Source of the DNA: Asanoa ferruginea
GTDB taxonomy: Bacteria > Actinomycetota > Actinomycetes > Mycobacteriales > Micromonosporaceae
DNA: 64,000 bases
Assembly: GCF_003387075.1 (NCBI RefSeq)
Contig: NZ_QUMQ01000001.1
Span: 2,728,001-2,792,000 of the forward strand
Reading direction: 5' to 3'
The position numbers and the translations under genes were made by a program. Numbering within the stretch: the first letter of the stretch is position 1; every line of letters starts with the position of its first letter. The notes beneath the pieces were generated by a model. That model saw only the letters and a program-made list of their open reading frames with translations, was not told the DNA's origin and searched no databases. This document shows positions 30,246 to 52,646 of this stretch, in pieces.

Positions 30246-31496
30246 GTGGTGGGATCGGCCCGGCGCCGGGTGGTCGCGGTGCTCGCCGGCCTCGTGCTGG
30301 TCGCGGGCGCCGGTCTCGTCGTCTACCGGGTCTTCGCGCCCGGCGAGGTGTTCGCCGAGCCATCGTCCGGCTATCCCGCGGCACCCACTGCGCACCCGGC
30401 GGCCGTGCTCGGCACGTTGCCGGCCACGCCGCTGATCGTCGACGGCCGGCTCCGGGTGATCGCCGACAAGCGCCAGGTCCGGGCCGACGGTCCGGTCGAC
30501 TCGCGCTACCTCAACACGCCCTACTGGTCGTTCCGGCGCTGGCCGGCCGAGTTGGTCGGGGTGGTCGCCGCCGGCACCACGGTGATCACCCGCTGGTCCG
30601 ACGGTGAACTCGTCGGGCTCGACGCCCGCACCGGGCGCGCCACCTGGCGGGCCAAGGGCGAGAAACCCGCGTCATCCGGGTACGCCGGCCGGCGCACCGG
30701 CGCGTCGACGGTCTACGAGCCGCCTGGCCTGTTCCTCGCCGGCAACACGGTGGTGGTGGCCGGCGCGACCGCTACACAGGCCTACGACGCGACCACCGGC
30801 GCGGCGGGCTGGCGCAACCCGGCACCCTGCGGCGGAGCCGACCCGAGCGGCTTCACCACCGCCGACAACCGGGTGGCGGTGCTGCGCTCCTGCGACACCG
30901 CGATCACGCTGGTCGACGCGGGCACCGGAGCGGCCGCCGGCACGATCCCGCGGAGCGCCGGTGACCCGGCCGCCGAGCCGCTGGACTGCCCGGCACCCCG
31001 GTCGGGCTGCGCCGGGCTGCGAATCGACCAGGGCGGCCACCGGACCGCGTGGCTCTTCGACGCGCCGCAGCCGCGGCAGGTCGGCGAGGCGGTCGAGGGG
31101 AGCGTCGGGCCCGGGCTGGCGGCCGCGGATGCCTGGCTGGTCGACGGGTTGACGGTCGCGGTCGACGGCACGTCGGTCGTCGCCGCCAACGCCGCCGACG
31201 GCGCGCCCCGGTGGCGGCACGACCTGGGTCGGCCCGGTGCGCAGGTCATCGCCGTGCAGGCGGGCGCAGTGCATGTGCTGACGGCCGATCGTGACCTGGT
31301 CACGCTCGACGCCGCGACCGGCGCCGAGCGATCCCGGATCCGTTACACCTACTTCGCCGAGAAGACCGACTGGGTGCCCGGCTTCACCTACGCCGTGGAC
31401 GGCTTCGTGCTGACCGAGCGCCTGGCGGACCCGGCGGCCCCGGAGGACGCCGACTACTACTTCGACGCCCAACCGGTGCTGCTCGCCCGCTCCTAG
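30246..31496 (+). CDS. Anchored extracellular PQQ-like beta-propeller protein
   Basis: The 416-residue product has a basic N-terminus, one membrane helix (about 10-28) and an extracellular repeat domain. Repeats such as GLDARTGRATWRAKG, AYDATTGAAGWRNPA and AANAADGAPRWRHDLG are typical blades of PQQ-like propellers (DxxTGxxxW pattern). No PQQ-enzyme catalytic residues are apparent, so it is probably a binding or scaffold protein. The GTG at 30246 lies 7 nt after TAGGGT. Its stop overlaps the stop of the convergent aminotransferase gene. A second such protein lies at 36096 and a third is fused to Hsp70 at 48914. Confidence 0.75.
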   Translation: MVGSARRRVVAVLAGLVLVAGAGLVVYRVFAPGEVFAEPSSGYPAAPTAHPAAVLGTLPATPLIVDGRLRVIADKRQVRADGPVDSRYLNTPYWSFRRWPAELVGVVAAGTTVITRWSDGELVGLDARTGRATWRAKGEKPASSGYAGRRTGASTVYEPPGLFLAGNTVVVAGATATQAYDATTGAAGWRNPAPCGGADPSGFTTADNRVAVLRSCDTAITLVDAGTGAAAGTIPRSAGDPAAEPLDCPAPRSGCAGLRIDQGGHRTAWLFDAPQPRQVGEAVEGSVGPGLAAADAWLVDGLTVAVDGTSVVAANAADGAPRWRHDLGRPGAQVIAVQAGAVHVLTADRDLVTLDAATGAERSRIRYTYFAEKTDWVPGFTYAVDGFVLTERLADPAAPEDADYYFDAQPVLLARS

Positions 31497-36095: not shown

Positions 36096-37517
36096 GTGGC
36101 GAGGGGTAAAGGCGAGGGCCCCTGCGTGAAGTGCTGGGCCCTATTCGTAGCGGTCCTCCTCGTCGTGGGCTATTTCACCGGTGTGCTGACCCCGTTCCTC
36201 GACAAGGTCTGGGCGATGGTCAACACCGACAGCGCGCTGACCACCCCCGCACCCCTCTGGCAGCAGCGGCTCGGCGGCACGCCGCGCAGCGCGACCATCG
36301 CCGGCGGCGCGGTCATCATCGAGCAGCGCACCCTCGTCGAGTCGCGCGGCCTCGGCTCCGGCGCCCAACTCTGGGAGCACAAGGCCGACTGGGCCGCGGT
36401 CGCCGGCGAGGGCAACTCCGCCGTCGTGGTCACCGGCAAGCTGCTGGTCAAGGGCTACGAGGTGGTCGACCCGATGTCGGGTCTCGTGCGCCGCCGCGAC
36501 ACCGAGGCGCGGGCCGTCTGGACCTACCGCAACGGGATGCTCGACGTGCGCTGCCACGGCGCCGAAGACTGCACGCTGTCGGCCTGGGACCCGCAGGGCA
36601 GTTCGCCGCGGTGGAGCGTCGAGATCCCCGGCATCGGCTTCGTGCTCTTCGCCGACAACCCCGACATCCTCGGCACCAAGCCGATGACCACCAGACGGAT
36701 CGATGACAACGCCGGCGGCCCCGACCTCATGCCGCCGATGGTCGGGCTGCCGATCGACAACCGGGTGTACGTCGTCGACACCGCTGAGGGCAAGGTGGTC
36801 CGCGAGATCGAGCCCGACCGCGACGAGCGGGTCGTCGTGGTCGGCGGCCGGGTGCTCCGGATCAAGGCGGTCTCCGCCGACGGCACCTGCTATTTCTCGG
36901 TGGTCGCGTCGGACGCGGCGACCGGTGGCGAAGTGTGGCGCAACGCCGGCATCAACCTGCGCACGGCCAAAGACGGCGGCTGCGCCCAGCGCGACGACCC
37001 GGCCGGCGGTCGCAACGTGGTCGTCGGGGTCGCGGCCGACGCCCGCGAGTTGGTGATCGATGCCTACGACGGGCGGATCCTGTTCACCGGTGCGCCCGGC
37101 GAGCACCTGCTGGGCGTCGATGATCGCTATGCGGTCGCGCGTACCGCCGACGCGGCCGCCATCCGCAGCGCCGAACTCGGCGGCCGGGGCCACTGGCAAC
37201 GCCCGGTCACGTCGGCCGGCAAGGTGGCCCTGACCGCACCCGCGGTGGTGGTGGTCGACGAGAAGCCCGACAAGATCATTGCGCTCAACCCGGGCACCGG
37301 CGCCGAACTGGTCAACGTGCGCTCGGACGCCGACGTGCTCGCCGTCGGCCCGGCCGGGTTGATCATCGTGAGTGGCCGCGACCTCGCCTACCTGCCGTTC
37401 CAGGGCAGCGGCGGGGTGCCCAACCCGCCGGCGGGTGGCGGCAACACCGGCGGCGGCACCCCGGGCCCCGGCGCCGACTGTGGCGGGCCCAAACAAGAGG
37501 TCTGCAAGGCCGGCTAG
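36096..37517 (+). CDS. Anchored PQQ-like beta-propeller protein
   Basis: The 473-residue product starts with a short basic stretch containing Cys10 and Cys13 (CVKC), then one membrane helix (about 14-33) and a large extracellular beta-propeller: GSGAQLWEHKADW, SDAATGGEVWRNAG, IIALNPGTGAELVNV are blade-like repeats. It ends in a Gly/Pro-rich tail with two Cys. No catalytic residues of PQQ dehydrogenases are seen. The GTG at 36096 lies 6 nt after TATGGT (36084-36089). Its stop codon TAG is part of TAGGCT before fumA. Confidence 0.75.
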   Translation: MARGKGEGPCVKCWALFVAVLLVVGYFTGVLTPFLDKVWAMVNTDSALTTPAPLWQQRLGGTPRSATIAGGAVIIEQRTLVESRGLGSGAQLWEHKADWAAVAGEGNSAVVVTGKLLVKGYEVVDPMSGLVRRRDTEARAVWTYRNGMLDVRCHGAEDCTLSAWDPQGSSPRWSVEIPGIGFVLFADNPDILGTKPMTTRRIDDNAGGPDLMPPMVGLPIDNRVYVVDTAEGKVVREIEPDRDERVVVVGGRVLRIKAVSADGTCYFSVVASDAATGGEVWRNAGINLRTAKDGGCAQRDDPAGGRNVVVGVAADARELVIDAYDGRILFTGAPGEHLLGVDDRYAVARTADAAAIRSAELGGRGHWQRPVTSAGKVALTAPAVVVVDEKPDKIIALNPGTGAELVNVRSDADVLAVGPAGLIIVSGRDLAYLPFQGSGGVPNPPAGGGNTGGGTPGPGADCGGPKQEVCKAG

Positions 37518-45031: not shown

Positions 45032-46459
45032 GTGACGCTGCGTTTGCATGACACCGCGACCCGGTCGGTGCGGGAATTCGTCCCGCGAGAGCCCGGCAAG
45101 GTCTCGATGTACCTCTGTGGCCTCACCGTGCAGTCCGAGCCGCACATCGGCCACCTTCGCTCCGGCGTCAGCTACGACGTGCTCCGTCGGTGGTTCGAGC
45201 GCAACGACTACCAGGTGAGGTTCATCCGCAACATCACCGACATCGACGACAAGGTGCTGCAGAAGTCGCTGGAGCAGGGCCGGTCGTTCTGGTCGATCGC
45301 CTACGCCAACGAGGTCATCCTCGACGCCGCCTACCGCTCACTCAACGTGCTGCGGCCGACCTACGCGCCGCGGGCCACCGGTCACATCACCGAGATGCAC
45401 GGCCTGATCGCCCAGTTGATCGACAACGGTCACGCCTACGCGGCCGAAGACGGTTCCGGCGACGTCTACTTCGACGTCAAGTCCTACGCCGACTACGGCT
45501 CCCTTTCCGGGCAGCGGGTCGACGAGATGGCCAGCGCCGCCGACAGCGCCGACCGGGCCAAGCGCGACCCGCGCGACTTCGCGCTCTGGAAGGGCTACAA
45601 GCCCGACGAGCCGGTCGAGGCGCAGTGGTCGAGCCCCTGGGGCGCCGGCCGGCCGGGTTGGCACATCGAGTGCTCCGCCATGTGCCTGCGCTACCTGGGT
45701 CCGGAGTTCGACATCCACGGCGGCGGCCTCGACCTGACCTTCCCGCACCACGAGAACGAGATCGCCCAGTCCCGTTCGGCCGGGCTGCCGTTCGCCCGCT
45801 TCTGGGTCCACAACGGCCTGCTCAACCTGGGCGACGCCAAGATGGGCAAGTCGACCGGCAACGCGCTCGACCTCGACTACGTCACGGCGCTCGGCGTGCG
45901 GATGGTCGAGCTGCGGCACTACTTCGTCTCCGTGCACTACCGCTCCCGGATCGACTACTCCGACGAGGCGTTGCGTGAGTCCGCGACCGCCTACCGACGG
46001 ATCGAGGGATTCGTGGAGCGGGCTGTCGAGTCGGTGGGCGCGATCCCGGCCGGCGACCTACCGGCGGCGTTCGCCGAGGCGCTCGACGACGACCTCAACA
46101 CCTCCGGCGCGTTCGCGGTGGTGCACGAGACCGTGCGCGCCGGCAACACCGCGCTGGCGGCCGGCGACGACGCGGGTGTTCGCGCCGCGCTCGGCAGCGT
46201 CCGGGCGATGCTCGACGTGCTCGGCATCGACCCGCTCGACCCGGCCTGGTCGGTCGCGTCGACCGGGGGCACGCCGGGCGAAGAGCTGCGCGGGATCATC
46301 GACTCGCTCGTCGCGCTCGCGCTGGACCAGCGCGCGCAGGCGCGCAGCAGGAAAGACTGGACCGCCGCGGACGCGGTCCGGGACCAGCTCAACTCGGCCG
46401 GGGTCAACGTCGAAGACACCCCGCACGGCCCGCGTTGGACGATCGGAAGCAGGGACTGA
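45032..46459 (+). CDS. cysS: Cysteinyl-tRNA synthetase
   Basis: CysS charges tRNA-Cys. The 475-residue class I synthetase has the zinc ligand Cys29 in MYLCGLT, HIGH at 38-41, the WHIECSAM zinc segment, [15 protein letters not shown], and the KMSKS equivalent KMGKS at 270-274. TACCCT at 45020-45025 ends 6 nt before the GTG, so the message is likely leaderless. The TGA overlaps the ATG of the rRNA methyltransferase gene. The mycothiol homologue MshC is distinguished by length and context, and this one has the full anticodon-binding region. Confidence 0.97.
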
Positions 46460-47574
46460 TGGCGGGCAACTCACAGCGACGTGGCCGACGGGTCACCCCC
46501 AAGAAGGGTGCGGCCGCCGGCTCCGGCGGCAAGAACCGGTCGAGCCTGTCCGGCAAGGGACGCACCCTGCCCGCCGACGAGCGGCCCTGGCACAAGGGCT
46601 ACTCGGGCACCGAGAAGCTGCCCAACCGCACCGCCTGGAAACAGGCCAAGGAGAAGAAGGCCGCGGCGGCCGAAGGTCGGGCCCCCAAGATCGGGCAGCC
46701 GGGCACCAAGGACACCACCTGGGGCAAGGGCACCAAGGGCAGCAAGCCGAGGCAGAGCCAGCGGCAGGCACCGCAACGTGGTGGCAACCCGCGGGTGGCG
46801 CCGGGCCGCCGCTCCAACACTCCGCGCGACGCGCCGGAGTTGCTGGTCGGCCGCAACCCGGTGCTCGAGGCGCTGCGCGCGATGGTCCCGGCGACCGCGC
46901 TCTACGTCGCGCAGGGCATCGACATCGACGACCGGATCACCGAGATCGTCCGCACCGCCGGCGACCGCGGCATCCCGCTGCTCGAGGTCGGCCGCGCCGA
47001 ACTCGACCGGATGACCGGCGGCGTCCTCCATCAGGGTGTCGGCATCCAGGTGCCGCCGTTCGCCTACGAGCCGTTCGACGACCTGCTGGCGGCCGCGCTG
47101 GAGCACCCCACGCCGCTGCTGGTGGCGCTCGATGGCATCACCGACCCGCGCAACCTCGGCGCGACGATCCGCTCGGCCGCCGCGTTCGGCGCGCAGGGCG
47201 TCTTCGTCCCCGAGCGGCGGGCCGCCGGCATCACCGCGACCGCGTGGCGCACCAGCGCCGGCGCTGCCGCACGGGTGCCGGTCAGCCAGGTGGTCAACCT
47301 GACCCGGGCGATCAAGGCAGCCCAGCGCGAGGGCTTCGTGGTGATCGGGCTCGACGCCGATGGCGAGACCGACATCTACAACCTGGAAGCCGCGGTCGGC
47401 CCGCTGGTGGTCGTCGTCGGTTCCGAGGGGCGCGGCCTGTCCCGGCTGGTCGGCGAGACCTGCGACATGCGGGTCGGCATCCCGATGGTGTCCGAGGTGG
47501 AGTCGCTCAACGCGAGCGTCGCCGCCGCGGTCGCGCTCGCCGAGATCGCCCGACGCCGGAGCGACGCCGCCTGA
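46459..47574 (+). CDS. rlmB: SpoU-family 23S rRNA 2'-O-methyltransferase (RlmB-type)
   Basis: The 371-residue enzyme has a Lys/Arg/Pro-rich N-terminal extension (about 1-125), a substrate-binding domain from [12 protein letters not shown] and a SPOUT knot: motif 1 [16 protein letters not shown] near 224, motif 2 [12 protein letters not shown] near 317 and motif 3 [15 protein letters not shown] near 343. RlmB methylates G2251 of 23S rRNA in E. coli; the exact site here is not proven. The ATG at 46459 shares one base with the cysS stop. The cysS-rlmB order is conserved in actinobacteria. Confidence 0.93.
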
Positions 47575-47634: not shown

Positions 47635-48837
47635 ATGACGAAACGTCGCAATGTATGGATGGGTGCGGCCGCGGCCGTCGCCCTTGCCGTGGGTGTCGCG
47701 GGACCGGCGTCGGCACACGATGCCGATGAGTTCGGCCCCGCGACCCTGACCGGTTTCGCGTCGCTCCCGGCGCTCACCTTCGTGCCCGCGAGCGAGCCGT
47801 CCGGTTCGCTGCTCGACACCGCGCCGGTCAACGGCGTTGCCGCACCCTGGGACGACCAGCCCGTGCAGGGCTTCAGCGGCATCGTCAAGAACGGCGACGG
47901 CAGCTACGAGGTGATGTCGGACAACGGCTTCGGCAACAAGGCCAACAGCGCGGACTTCGTCCTGCGCATCCACACCCTCGCGCCGGTCTTCCACGAGAAC
48001 AAGGTCGACGTTCTCGGCGGCATCAACCTGACCGATCCCAAGGGGTACGTGACCTGGCCGCTGATCCGCAAGGACCGGGTGCTGACCGGCTCGGACTTCG
48101 ACGTCGAGTCGATCCAGCGGGCCGCCGACGGCACCTACTGGATCGGTGACGAGTTCGGCCCGTTCCTGCTGCACTTCGACCGCACCGGCGCCATGATGCA
48201 GGCGCCGATCTCGCTGCCCGGCGTGTTCGCGCCGGAGAACCCGTTGCGCGGCACCACGCCCAACAACATCAACAGCAGCAAGGGCTTCGAGGGCATGGCG
48301 CAGTCGCCCGACGGCCGCAAGCTCTACCCGCTGCTGGAGGGCACCGTCGCCGGTGACACCCCGGGCACGCTGCGGCTCAACGAGTTCGACGTGCGCGCCG
48401 GCGGCTACACCGGCAAGCACTACGTCTACAAGCTCGACGATCCGGCCAACGCGATCGGCGACGCCATCGCCGTCGACGGCCACCGCTTCCTGGTCATCGA
48501 GCGCGACAACGGCCAGGGCGCCACCGCCAAGACCAAGCGGATCTACCTGGCCAACATGAGCGACCGCGACAAGGACGGCGCCATGGACAAGACGCTGGTC
48601 GCCGACCTGATGAACATCAACAACCCGAAGAAGCTCGGCGGCTTCGGCAAGACCTTCACGTTCCCGTTCCAGACGATCGAAGACGTCGTGATCCTCGACA
48701 ACCAGACGATCGCCGTGCTCAACGACAACAACTTCCCGGGCTCGGCCGGCCGCACCGCCGGCGTCCCCGACAACAACGAGTTCATCACGCTGAAGCTCAC
48801 CCAGAGCCTCAACGCGGATCGCCGCTTCATCGACTAA
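47635..48837 (+). CDS. Secreted esterase-like/phytase-like protein
   Basis: The 400-residue product has a signal peptide (about 1-28, cleavage after ASAH or ASA) and a six-bladed propeller of the phytase-like/esterase-like family (PF13449): GFSGIVKNGDGSYEVMSDNG near 82, FDVESIQRAADGTYWIGDEFGP near 161, SSKGFEGMAQSPDGRKLYPLLEG near 213, AIAVDGHRFLVIERDN near 281 and EDVVILDNQTIAVLNDNN. Asp and Glu residues at the blade edges are typical metal ligands. The substrate, possibly a phosphate ester, is not established. TAGCTT lies 8 nt before the ATG. Confidence 0.85.
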   Translation: MTKRRNVWMGAAAAVALAVGVAGPASAHDADEFGPATLTGFASLPALTFVPASEPSGSLLDTAPVNGVAAPWDDQPVQGFSGIVKNGDGSYEVMSDNGFGNKANSADFVLRIHTLAPVFHENKVDVLGGINLTDPKGYVTWPLIRKDRVLTGSDFDVESIQRAADGTYWIGDEFGPFLLHFDRTGAMMQAPISLPGVFAPENPLRGTTPNNINSSKGFEGMAQSPDGRKLYPLLEGTVAGDTPGTLRLNEFDVRAGGYTGKHYVYKLDDPANAIGDAIAVDGHRFLVIERDNGQGATAKTKRIYLANMSDRDKDGAMDKTLVADLMNINNPKKLGGFGKTFTFPFQTIEDVVILDNQTIAVLNDNNFPGSAGRTAGVPDNNEFITLKLTQSLNADRRFID

Positions 48838-48896: not shown

Positions 48897-48913
48897 CCCG
48901 CGGAGGTCGGTAG

Positions 48914-51502
48914 ATGCAAGGGCACGCGCTCGGGGTCGATCTGGGCACGTCCAACACGGTTGCCGTGTTGCGTTGGCCCGACGGGCGCACCCGACCGTTG
49001 CTGTTCGACGGTCAACCGCTGCTGCCCTCCGGTGTGCTCCTCGACGAGGCCGGCCGGCTGCACGTCGGTCGCGACGCCGAGCGGCTCGCCCAGGCCGACC
49101 CGGCCCGCTACGAGCCCAACCCGAAGCGACACGTCGACGCCGCCGGTGTGCTGCTCGGCGACCGCGAGGTGGCGACCGTCGACCTGCTCGCCGCGATCCT
49201 GGCCGCCGTCGCGCACGCGGCCGTCGAGGCGGTCGGCTACCTGCCACCGGCCACGCTCACCTATCCCGCGGCCTGGGGCCCGCAGCGCCGGCAGGCGCTG
49301 ACCGAGGCACTGTCCCGGGCCGGCTGGCCCGCCAGCACCCTGGTGCCCGAGCCGGTCGCGGCCGCCCGTTACTTCGCTGAGGTGCTGCGCCGCCCGGTGC
49401 CGGTCGGCTCGGCGCTGGCGGTCTTCGACTTCGGTGGCGGCACGCTCGACATCGCGGTGGTCCGCAACGACGGCCCGGATCAGACCGGCCGGTCGCGGTT
49501 CAGCGTGGTCGCCTCCGGTGGCGTCGCCGAACTCGGCGGCCTCGACCTCGACGCGGCGCTGGTCGGCCACCTGGGCCAGGTGCTCGCCGGCACCGACCCG
49601 GCCGCCTGGGAACGGTTGCGCAACCCGGTCAACGCGGCGCAACTGCGCGACCGGCGGCGCTTCTGGGACGACGTACGCGGTGCCAAGGAAATGTTGTCCC
49701 GCGCGGCCGTGGCGCCCGTGGCGGTCCCGGGTGTCGACCAGGCCGTCCACCTCACCCGCGAAGAGCTCGAACGGCTGGCCACCCCGCTGCTGCGCCGGGG
49801 CGTCATGGAGACCGCGGCAGTGATCGAGAGCGCCAAGCTGCGGCCCGACCAGCTCGCCGGGCTGTTCCTGGTCGGCGGCTCCTCCCGGGTGCCGCTGGTG
49901 GCCCGGCTGCTGCATTCCGACCTGGGCCTCGCCCCGACCGTGCTCGAGCAGCCCGAGTTGCCGGTCGCCGAGGGCGCGCTCGCCGAGCTGCCGGCCCGTG
50001 CCGCGCACATCCCGGCCCAGGCGACCGCACCGGCGACCGTCCCGGCCGGGCCCGGCTTCGCGGCGCCGGAACCGACCTCACCGGCACCCGCCGGGCCGTG
50101 GAGCCCGCCGCCGGGGTCACCGGCCGCGCCGCGGCGACGCCTGCCCCGAAAGCTCTTGCTCCCAGCAGTGGCGCTCGCGCTGGTCGTGGTCGTCGCCGCC
50201 GTCTCGGTGATCGTCACCCTGCTCAACCGCGACGGGTACGACAAGGTCAAGTTCGCGGCGTTCAGCGACGTCGGCCAGCCGTTGCCGATGAGCGAACGGG
50301 CCTACGACGCGTTCAGCCACGTGACGGGCGACCGGGCCTACTTCGCCTACACGACCGAGCAGAAGAAGCTCACCGTCGTCGCCGCCGACGCCACGTCGGG
50401 CAAGCAGCTCTGGAGCCAGGACGTGCCTGACGCCGCCGACGACTGGCGGGGCATCCGGTCCGTGCCGGGCGCCGTCCTCGCTGAAGCCGACGCGATCGGC
50501 AGCACCGCGCCGCGCCGGCTTTCCGTGCTCGATCCCGACAACGGCCGCCGGATGTGGAGCGTCGACCTCTACGGCGAAGACGAGACGTTCGTCGTCGCCG
50601 ACCGCCTGGTGGTCGTCGACCGGAAGAACGCGAAGCTGGTCGGCTACGGGCTGCGCGACGGTGAACGCAAATGGGACCTGGACACCCCGAAGAACCAATA
50701 CGACGACACCAAGACCAAGGTGTACGGCGCGCAGACGCCCACCGACGTCGGCGGCCCGGCGGACTTCGCGGGCACGGCGCTGGACCCCGACCGCGACGAC
50801 GACAAGCGGCTCGTGCAGATCAGCGCCGACCGCTCGGCCCGGGTGATCGACGCGGTGAGCGGCAAGATCCTCGACCAGCAACCCAACGTGGCCGACCCGG
50901 GCGACCCCGCGACGGTCTACGACGGCCAGCTCTTCACCGTCCGCACCACCGAGGGCACCGAGTTGTTCGCGGCCGACCTCGACGCCCTCGACAAGCCGCG
51001 CAGCATCTACCGGGCGGCCGACCCGCAGCGCCGGGCGGCGTCGCTGAGCGCCTGCGGCGAGAAGCGGATCTGCCTGCTGGAGCAGACCTCGTTCGACACG
51101 AAGACCACCGAACTGGTCGCGGTGCCGTTCGCCGGCGACGGCGCGACCTGGACGAAACCGGCGGCCGGGGTCGACTCGATCCTGCCGGTCGGCACCCACG
51201 TGCTGGTGCAGAGCGACGAGTCGGGCACCGACCACGTGGTCGGCTACGACGCGACCGGCAAGCAGGTGCTCGACAGCGACGGCGTCGCGGCGCGGGTCAA
51301 CGGTGCCAGCGTGTTGATCTTCGGGAAGCCGCCGAGCCTCAGCGCCGCCGACTACAACGTGGTCGGCTGGGTGCTCGGCGAGAAGCAGCCGGTGCAACTC
51401 GGCGCGCTCGTCGGGGTGCGCTCCTCGACCTGCACCTGGTCGACCAGCGTCATCGCCTGCGCCGGCGACAGCGACCTGCGGTTGCGGCGCTTCGCCGGAT
51501 AA
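48914..51502 (+). CDS. Hsp70-type ATPase fused through a membrane helix to an extracellular beta-propeller
   Basis: This 862-residue protein joins three parts. Residues 1-360 are an Hsp70 actin-like ATPase domain: phosphate-1 GVDLGTSNTVAV (7-18), TYPAAWGPQRRQAL, PEPVAAARYF, phosphate-2 VFDFGGGTLDIAVV (about 170-183) and adenosine motif LFLVGGSSRVPLV (about 317-329). There is no Hsp70 substrate-binding domain. A Pro/Ala linker (about 365-410) leads to one membrane helix (about 414-436). Residues 440-862 are a PQQ-like propeller (ATSGKQLWSQDV, DPDNGRRMWSVDL, KLVGYGLRDGERKWDL). Topology predicts a cytosolic ATPase and an outside sensor. GGAGGTCGG lies before the ATG. A terminator follows. Confidence 0.9.
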   Translation: MQGHALGVDLGTSNTVAVLRWPDGRTRPLLFDGQPLLPSGVLLDEAGRLHVGRDAERLAQADPARYEPNPKRHVDAAGVLLGDREVATVDLLAAILAAVAHAAVEAVGYLPPATLTYPAAWGPQRRQALTEALSRAGWPASTLVPEPVAAARYFAEVLRRPVPVGSALAVFDFGGGTLDIAVVRNDGPDQTGRSRFSVVASGGVAELGGLDLDAALVGHLGQVLAGTDPAAWERLRNPVNAAQLRDRRRFWDDVRGAKEMLSRAAVAPVAVPGVDQAVHLTREELERLATPLLRRGVMETAAVIESAKLRPDQLAGLFLVGGSSRVPLVARLLHSDLGLAPTVLEQPELPVAEGALAELPARAAHIPAQATAPATVPAGPGFAAPEPTSPAPAGPWSPPPGSPAAPRRRLPRKLLLPAVALALVVVVAAVSVIVTLLNRDGYDKVKFAAFSDVGQPLPMSERAYDAFSHVTGDRAYFAYTTEQKKLTVVAADATSGKQLWSQDVPDAADDWRGIRSVPGAVLAEADAIGSTAPRRLSVLDPDNGRRMWSVDLYGEDETFVVADRLVVVDRKNAKLVGYGLRDGERKWDLDTPKNQYDDTKTKVYGAQTPTDVGGPADFAGTALDPDRDDDKRLVQISADRSARVIDAVSGKILDQQPNVADPGDPATVYDGQLFTVRTTEGTELFAADLDALDKPRSIYRAADPQRRAASLSACGEKRICLLEQTSFDTKTTELVAVPFAGDGATWTKPAAGVDSILPVGTHVLVQSDESGTDHVVGYDATGKQVLDSDGVAARVNGASVLIFGKPPSLSAADYNVVGWVLGEKQPVQLGALVGVRSSTCTWSTSVIACAGDSDLRLRRFAG

Positions 51503-51554: not shown

Positions 51555-52646
<1,092 letters not shown>

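Follow-up and report, generated by a model that had tools for sequence, protein, structure and literature searches.

The 64,000-nucleotide stretch of DNA considered here, from the soil bacterium Asanoa ferruginea (the window; contig NZ_QUMQ01000001.1, positions 2,728,001 to 2,792,000 of the forward strand) contains a gene that joins an ATPase of the Hsp70 type to a membrane anchor. The gene lies at window positions 48914..51502 on the + strand, as do all features below unless stated otherwise. A GGAGGT resembling a ribosome-binding site (48902..48907) precedes its ATG. The product, a protein of 862 residues, is composed of an Hsp70 nucleotide-binding domain (NBD), a linker, a transmembrane (TM) helix, and a beta-propeller. 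This arrangement, which the original prediction had read from the letters of the gene, is recovered by a profile search, an alignment, and a structure model. Hsp70 is known as a chaperone. A literature search of open-licence papers found no published description of an Hsp70 NBD-TM-propeller architecture, in keeping with the earlier view of it as undescribed.

The NBD occupies residues 1-357 (48914..49984) and is identified by profile, alignment, and fold matches. Sequence and alignment reveal the phosphate-1 motif GTSNT (residues 11-15, 48944..48958), the phosphate-2 motif DFGGGTLD (residues 172-179, 49427..49450), and the adenosine motif LVGGSSR (residues 319-325, 49868..49888). In the alignment, K71 (49124..49126) and E146 (49349..49351) are equivalent to the catalytic lysine and glutamate of DnaK, presumably K70 and E171 in E. 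coli numbering. Together with D9, T12, D172, T177, and D179, they occupy what we take to be the positions of the DnaK catalytic set. These seven residues are unchanged wherever an orthologue row has a letter (38 or 39 of 39 rows), and the catalytic residues are complete in 38 of the 39, the exception having gaps at most of these positions. The Pfam HSP70 profile scores 85.6 bits on the window protein, and all of the best 50 matches listed in a fold search with the NBD are Hsp70-family NBDs. Among NCBIfam models, those for HscA score highest, but far under their cut-offs. Pkinase is not among the Pfam matches of the protein up to an E value of 1.

The Hsp70 profile match stops at profile position 368 of 599, and the remainder of the protein consists of linker, helix, and propeller. 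Neither the Pfam profile nor the structure model finds a C-terminal substrate-binding domain, and a hydrophobic interdomain linker of the VLLLD/LLLD type is absent in the rows displayed in the alignment, where the D393 position is variable. Thus, two early claims, that the nucleotide-binding motifs are kept and that the substrate-binding domain is missing, both hold.

A Pro/Ala-rich linker (residues 358-418, 49985..50167) leads from the NBD to the membrane. It is disordered in the structure model, with a predicted local distance difference test score below 50 over residues 364-422. The predicted TM helix (residues 419-437, 50168..50224), with RRRLPRK just before it, is indicated by hydropathy, alignment, and the model, which has a helix at 416-439 with low confidence; TM segments as such were called, here and below, by hydropathy alone. 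Residues 438-862 (50225..51499) form a PQQ/BamB-like beta-propeller, recognized by profile and fold and predicted to be extracytoplasmic by its cysteine pattern. All 40 of the rows compared keep four ectodomain cysteines, C714 and C720 (51053..51073) and C840 and C849 (51431..51460), and the first 360 residues of the NBD contain 0 or 1 cysteine in 37 of 39 orthologues. The conserved cysteines suit an oxidizing, extracytoplasmic location. We infer from these features of the sequence that the ATPase is cytoplasmic and that the propeller lies outside the cell. A single predicted span would then separate a predicted cytoplasmic nucleoside triphosphatase (NTPase) from a predicted outer module, as had been proposed at the outset.

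A contig scan of genomes yielded 55 relatives. At 39 loci (L011-L048 and L052), spread over many genera of the Micromonosporaceae and the Glycomycetaceae, the parts occur in the same order, with an ectodomain of 404-448 residues. Because 39 loci hold the same design, the fusion is not an accident, and a chance fusion or one caused by a frameshift, a concern raised with the original prediction, is ruled out. Identity to the window protein among 38 orthologues has a median of 74% in the NBD (62-91) and of 34% in the ectodomain (18-70). The linker, measured in 38 rows (L046, with a wrong N-terminus, was excluded), is 37-257 residues long, with a median of 119.5 and a median proline content of 23%. 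A linker this long, variable, and proline-rich argues against a rigid lever joining the ATPase to the propeller, and the earlier idea that ATP turnover moves the propeller finds no support. The gene is not strictly single-copy, since one Virgisporangium genome has two (L019 and L025). Of 101 genomes searched in the order, 10 match the ectodomain profile, and each of these belongs to the bacterial family of A. ferruginea (12 genomes of that family are among those listed). Across the phylum, at least 7 of 149 genomes, the A. ferruginea genome counted, match at an E value of 1e-50, a lower bound obtained from the best 13 candidates per genome.

The window gene itself represents a single orthologue group; more surprising is the wider family. 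When genomes of the bacterial family were searched with the NBD at an E value of 1e-40, 40 of 51 matched, giving at least 280 matches, with 0-26 per genome and a median of 3 (scoring covered the best 40 candidates per genome). In a tree of 71 NBDs, the window gene groups with its orthologues in a starred clade, and lineage-specific expansions are seen. (The first tree and the paralogue residue counts exclude L114, L111, L115, L008, and the partial L052 open reading frame (ORF); the second tree excludes L009, L077, and L072.) All seven catalytic residues checked are retained in 42 of 58 paralogue rows. A conservation count over 59 family rows also picks out residues characteristic of this family's NBD: E67, P68, P70, W121, R255, and E259. 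After the NBD, hydropathy predicts one membrane segment in 75 of 101 rows, several in 17, and none in 9, with L008, L114, L111, and L115 left out of the count.

The tails that follow the NBD are diverse. Fifty of 105 listed tails (65, with the window copy and partial ORFs counted, plus 40) were scanned with Pfam. Matches above the curated cut-offs are to WD40 (5 tails), PQQ_2 (4), Peripla_BP_6/ANF_receptor (3: L106, L160, and L171), and Kelch, MFS, BON, and TPR (1 each); under the cut-offs, PQQ_2 appears in 3 more tails and other sub-threshold matches in 2. These proportions are biased, because the tails were chosen mostly for length. One further tail scanned, that of L086, has no Pfam match. 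An orthologue of the periplasmic-binding fusion L106, 69% identical, occurs in another species of the same genus, where it forms a single 768-residue frame with the NBD, and fusions of this kind occur in two other genera besides. In five genomes searched for further hosts of the periplasmic-binding ectodomain, the matches are either fusions of the Hsp70-NBD family or ORFs of 417-489 residues. Two members have NBDs rather similar to that of the window protein: L155, with an NBD 59% identical and a Kelch propeller, and L189, with an NBD 55% identical and a 12-segment MFS transporter. A quick tree places both near the window clade, with low support (0.61 and 0.20). Judged from such sequence comparisons, one conserved ATPase is found behind many predicted outer modules.

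Some members depart from this pattern. In a single-TM group of Lentzea (L055-L062, L064, and L065), valine occupies the E146 position in 10 of 10 rows, and the group is a possible ATP-binding, non-hydrolysing version. L009, located in the A. ferruginea genome itself (C1, about 7442085), has a degenerate NBD (K71L, E146A, T177C, and D179E) and eight hydrophobic segments. Close to the window ectodomain (E value of 4e-53) is a propeller from genome G289 (L206:1441-2814) that lacks an NBD and has a hydrophobic stretch at its N-terminus; it is perhaps a receptor that shed its ATPase.

Taken together, a constant inner NTPase, a flexible tether, a membrane helix, and a variable outer module that includes known sensory types make up the plan of a receptor. 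We therefore propose, with confidence about evenly balanced, that the window protein belongs to a family of receptor-like membrane ATPases in which an outer ligand would alter the state of the NBD and the recruitment of a partner. By analogy, the outer module would bind a ligand or assembly in the envelope or outside the cell, and binding would change how the protein is clustered or positioned. This change might then affect whether the NBD holds ATP or ADP, and the nucleotide state would in turn recruit or release a cytoplasmic partner encoded elsewhere. If the linker tethers without transmitting force, the signal would pass by proximity. The nearest analogues in plan are the one-pass receptor Ser/Thr kinases (PknD and AfsK), in which a cytoplasmic NTP-using domain is followed by a flexible juxtamembrane segment, one TM helix, and an outer propeller, and which are thought to signal through proximity or clustering. 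The layout is alike, with the Hsp70 ATPase replacing the kinase. Signalling at the envelope, as first suggested, is strengthened by the paralogues with a receptor-type periplasmic-binding outer domain, and is best called plausible rather than settled.

Across 36 stretches around paralogues, a search for a neighbouring gene that recurs as a partner found none. Given that these neighbourhoods are unrelated, the cytoplasmic partner is probably encoded elsewhere, and one partner may be common to many paralogues. A possible relative is Rv0312, which carries an Hsp70 signature and is not known to have a propeller. MSMEG_0692/Rv0312 is described as a membrane protein with one TM helix and ATP binding, present in the FhaA interactome (PMC11898655). 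On a broader and more tentative view, there may be an actinomycete class of transmembrane receptors whose output domain is an Hsp70 ATPase released from its chaperone role and joined to periplasmic-binding, Kelch, PQQ, WD40, and transporter modules, in up to 26 copies per genome, with the nucleotide state of the NBD serving as the message read by a common partner. If so, this would be signal transduction of a new kind in bacteria, and one of life's most conserved proteins would have acquired a new use. Actinomycete genes annotated just as 'Hsp70 family protein' would also gain a function, and the common NBD offers one clear handle for a partner search.

Several points weigh against the receptor proposal. 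Charge and cysteine pattern suggest the topology, short of proof, and the helix has low confidence in the model. E146 is lost in the ten Lentzea rows, three further rows of the paralogue alignment are degenerate, and the arginine that contacts J-domains is present in 11 of 39 orthologue rows. At the limits applied, 29 of the 50 tails lack a Pfam match, and hydropathy predicts no membrane segment in 9 of the 101 rows, the TPR member included; thus, not every member need be a receptor. No neighbour recurs around the paralogues, where clusters of non-NBD genes occur in at most 5 of the 36 stretches (495 genes, roughly called), and the neighbours of the window gene are housekeeping genes. Finally, the tails of 22 kinase frames of the A. 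ferruginea genome (drawn from 31 kinase matches; some of the 22 may be one protein) have no blastp match at an E value of 1e-3 to 66 tails of the family. Ectodomains common to these kinases and the family are accordingly rejected, and exchange with receptor kinases is not supported.

The strongest rival, which we nevertheless regard as rather unlikely, is an envelope scaffold or tether. In this case the propeller would bind proteins of the cell wall or membrane, in the manner of BamB, and the NBD would fix it to a cytoplasmic complex, with ATP used for assembly only and no signal passed. The old, fixed locus favours a scaffold, and the window ectodomain shares the PQQ_2 profile and the propeller fold with BamB. 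BamB itself is an outer-membrane lipoprotein without an ATPase, whereas the window protein has its anchor helix in mid-protein and an actinomycete host, and it scores 34.8 bits with TIGR03300, for which the cut-off is 285.2. Against a scaffold, the ectodomain evolves fast, and such a role poorly explains the periplasmic-binding, Kelch, MFS, and other multi-span modules of the family. A quite different possibility follows from actin and Hsp70 belonging to the same superfamily: the NBD could polymerize under the membrane as MreB does, and so position the propeller. The MreB_Mbl match of the NBD is weak (23.6 bits, cut-off 27), the HSP70 score is far higher, and the best fold matches listed are all Hsp70-family NBDs, so that a filament former is the least probable of the alternatives and very improbable in itself.

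The whole Hsp70 NBD fold raises the further possibility of a membrane-bound co-chaperone or regulator of the Hsp70 cycle, the NBD competing for or titrating DnaJ, GrpE, or DnaK at the membrane; this we judge to be improbable. The window protein shares with DnaK and HscA the NBD and its catalytic residues, but it has a TM helix and propeller and lacks their substrate-binding domain and LLLD linker. In Hsp70, the interdomain linker is described as docking on the NBD and stimulating ATP hydrolysis (PMC6843406). The residue equivalent to R167, at the J-domain contact, is threonine in the window protein. Its loss is not general, because 11 of 39 rows retain arginine, which remains the most frequent residue at this position. 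The N170 equivalent is proline in 34 of 39 rows. The segment corresponding to the exposed loop contacted by GrpE has 21 residues in 38 of 39 orthologues (the other is gapped) and 20-22 in 59 family rows, a count that excludes L003, L009, L072-L077, L079, L113, and the two DnaKs; in these two DnaKs of the A. ferruginea genome it has 29, 8 more than in the window protein. HscA, too, is without this loop. Nor does the chaperone machinery expand with the copy number of the family: J-domain matches total 23 across eight genomes having 4-26 family matches versus 25 across eight having none (E value of 1e-40), and GrpE matches number 18 versus 13, a difference made up mostly of weak matches. None of the GrpE and J-domain matches of the A. 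ferruginea genome lies near the window gene. A co-chaperone role is favoured, on the other hand, by a relative from a Rhodococcus plasmid (38.5% identity, annotated 'Hsp70 family protein') that consists of the NBD only and has grpE directly upstream, and by three genomes in which short GrpE-like matches lie 3-4 kb from tail-anchored NBD paralogues, with dynamin-like GTPase genes within a few kb. On balance, ordinary control of the window-type NBD by J-domain proteins and GrpE is, from its sequence, unlikely. With the substrate-binding domain and interdomain linker lost, the GrpE loop shorter, and most of the J-domain contacts altered, nucleotide cycling probably either is intrinsic or depends on some partner other than DnaJ/GrpE.

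The tail-anchored paralogues (L257, L258, and L259 in G269, G258, and G289; L131, L118, and L134; L260 and L261) adjoin genes that, from rough gene calls, we take to be MFS-like and GDPD-like. Dynamin_N is confirmed by Pfam only in L257, L258, and L260. In G271 and G009, dynamin-like GTPase genes lie beside GrpE-like and J-domain matches, with no NBD gene in the fetched stretch.

Upstream of the window gene are genes we take from their sequence to be cysS (45032..46459, conserved at 31 of 39 loci) and an rlmB/TrmH-type rRNA methyltransferase gene (46435..47574). The latter is upstream on the same strand at 32 of 39 loci, with its alignment end at most 425 bases away in 20. Downstream and convergent, on the - strand, is presumably a MsmX-type ABC ATPase gene (51555..52646, 24 of 39 loci). 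Gene calls around the loci are rough. Hsp70-only proteins have been reported in GAP1-N2/DO-GTPase conflict systems (Kaur et al. 2020, PMC7159879), and those described in the available part of that account include no TM or propeller fusion. The window gene differs from them in having cysS, rlmB, and the ABC ATPase gene as its neighbours, a comparison in which GAP1 and DO-GTPase models were not searched. Between rlmB and the window gene lies a phytase-like esterase gene (47635-48837; E value of 1.5e-68), present within the fetched flanks at 4 of 39 loci, all four in Asanoa.

Two other propellers of the window, at 30246-31496 and 36096-37517, each have an N-terminal hydrophobic segment and had been suggested as possible related parts. 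They too match PQQ_2, but are just distantly similar to the ectodomain (hhalign probabilities of 64 and 20, with E values of 7e-5 and 1e-3), and no evidence links them to it as parts. Elsewhere in the A. ferruginea genome (L219:1018-2775; C1, about 3289580), a TIR domain is fused to a PQQ propeller.
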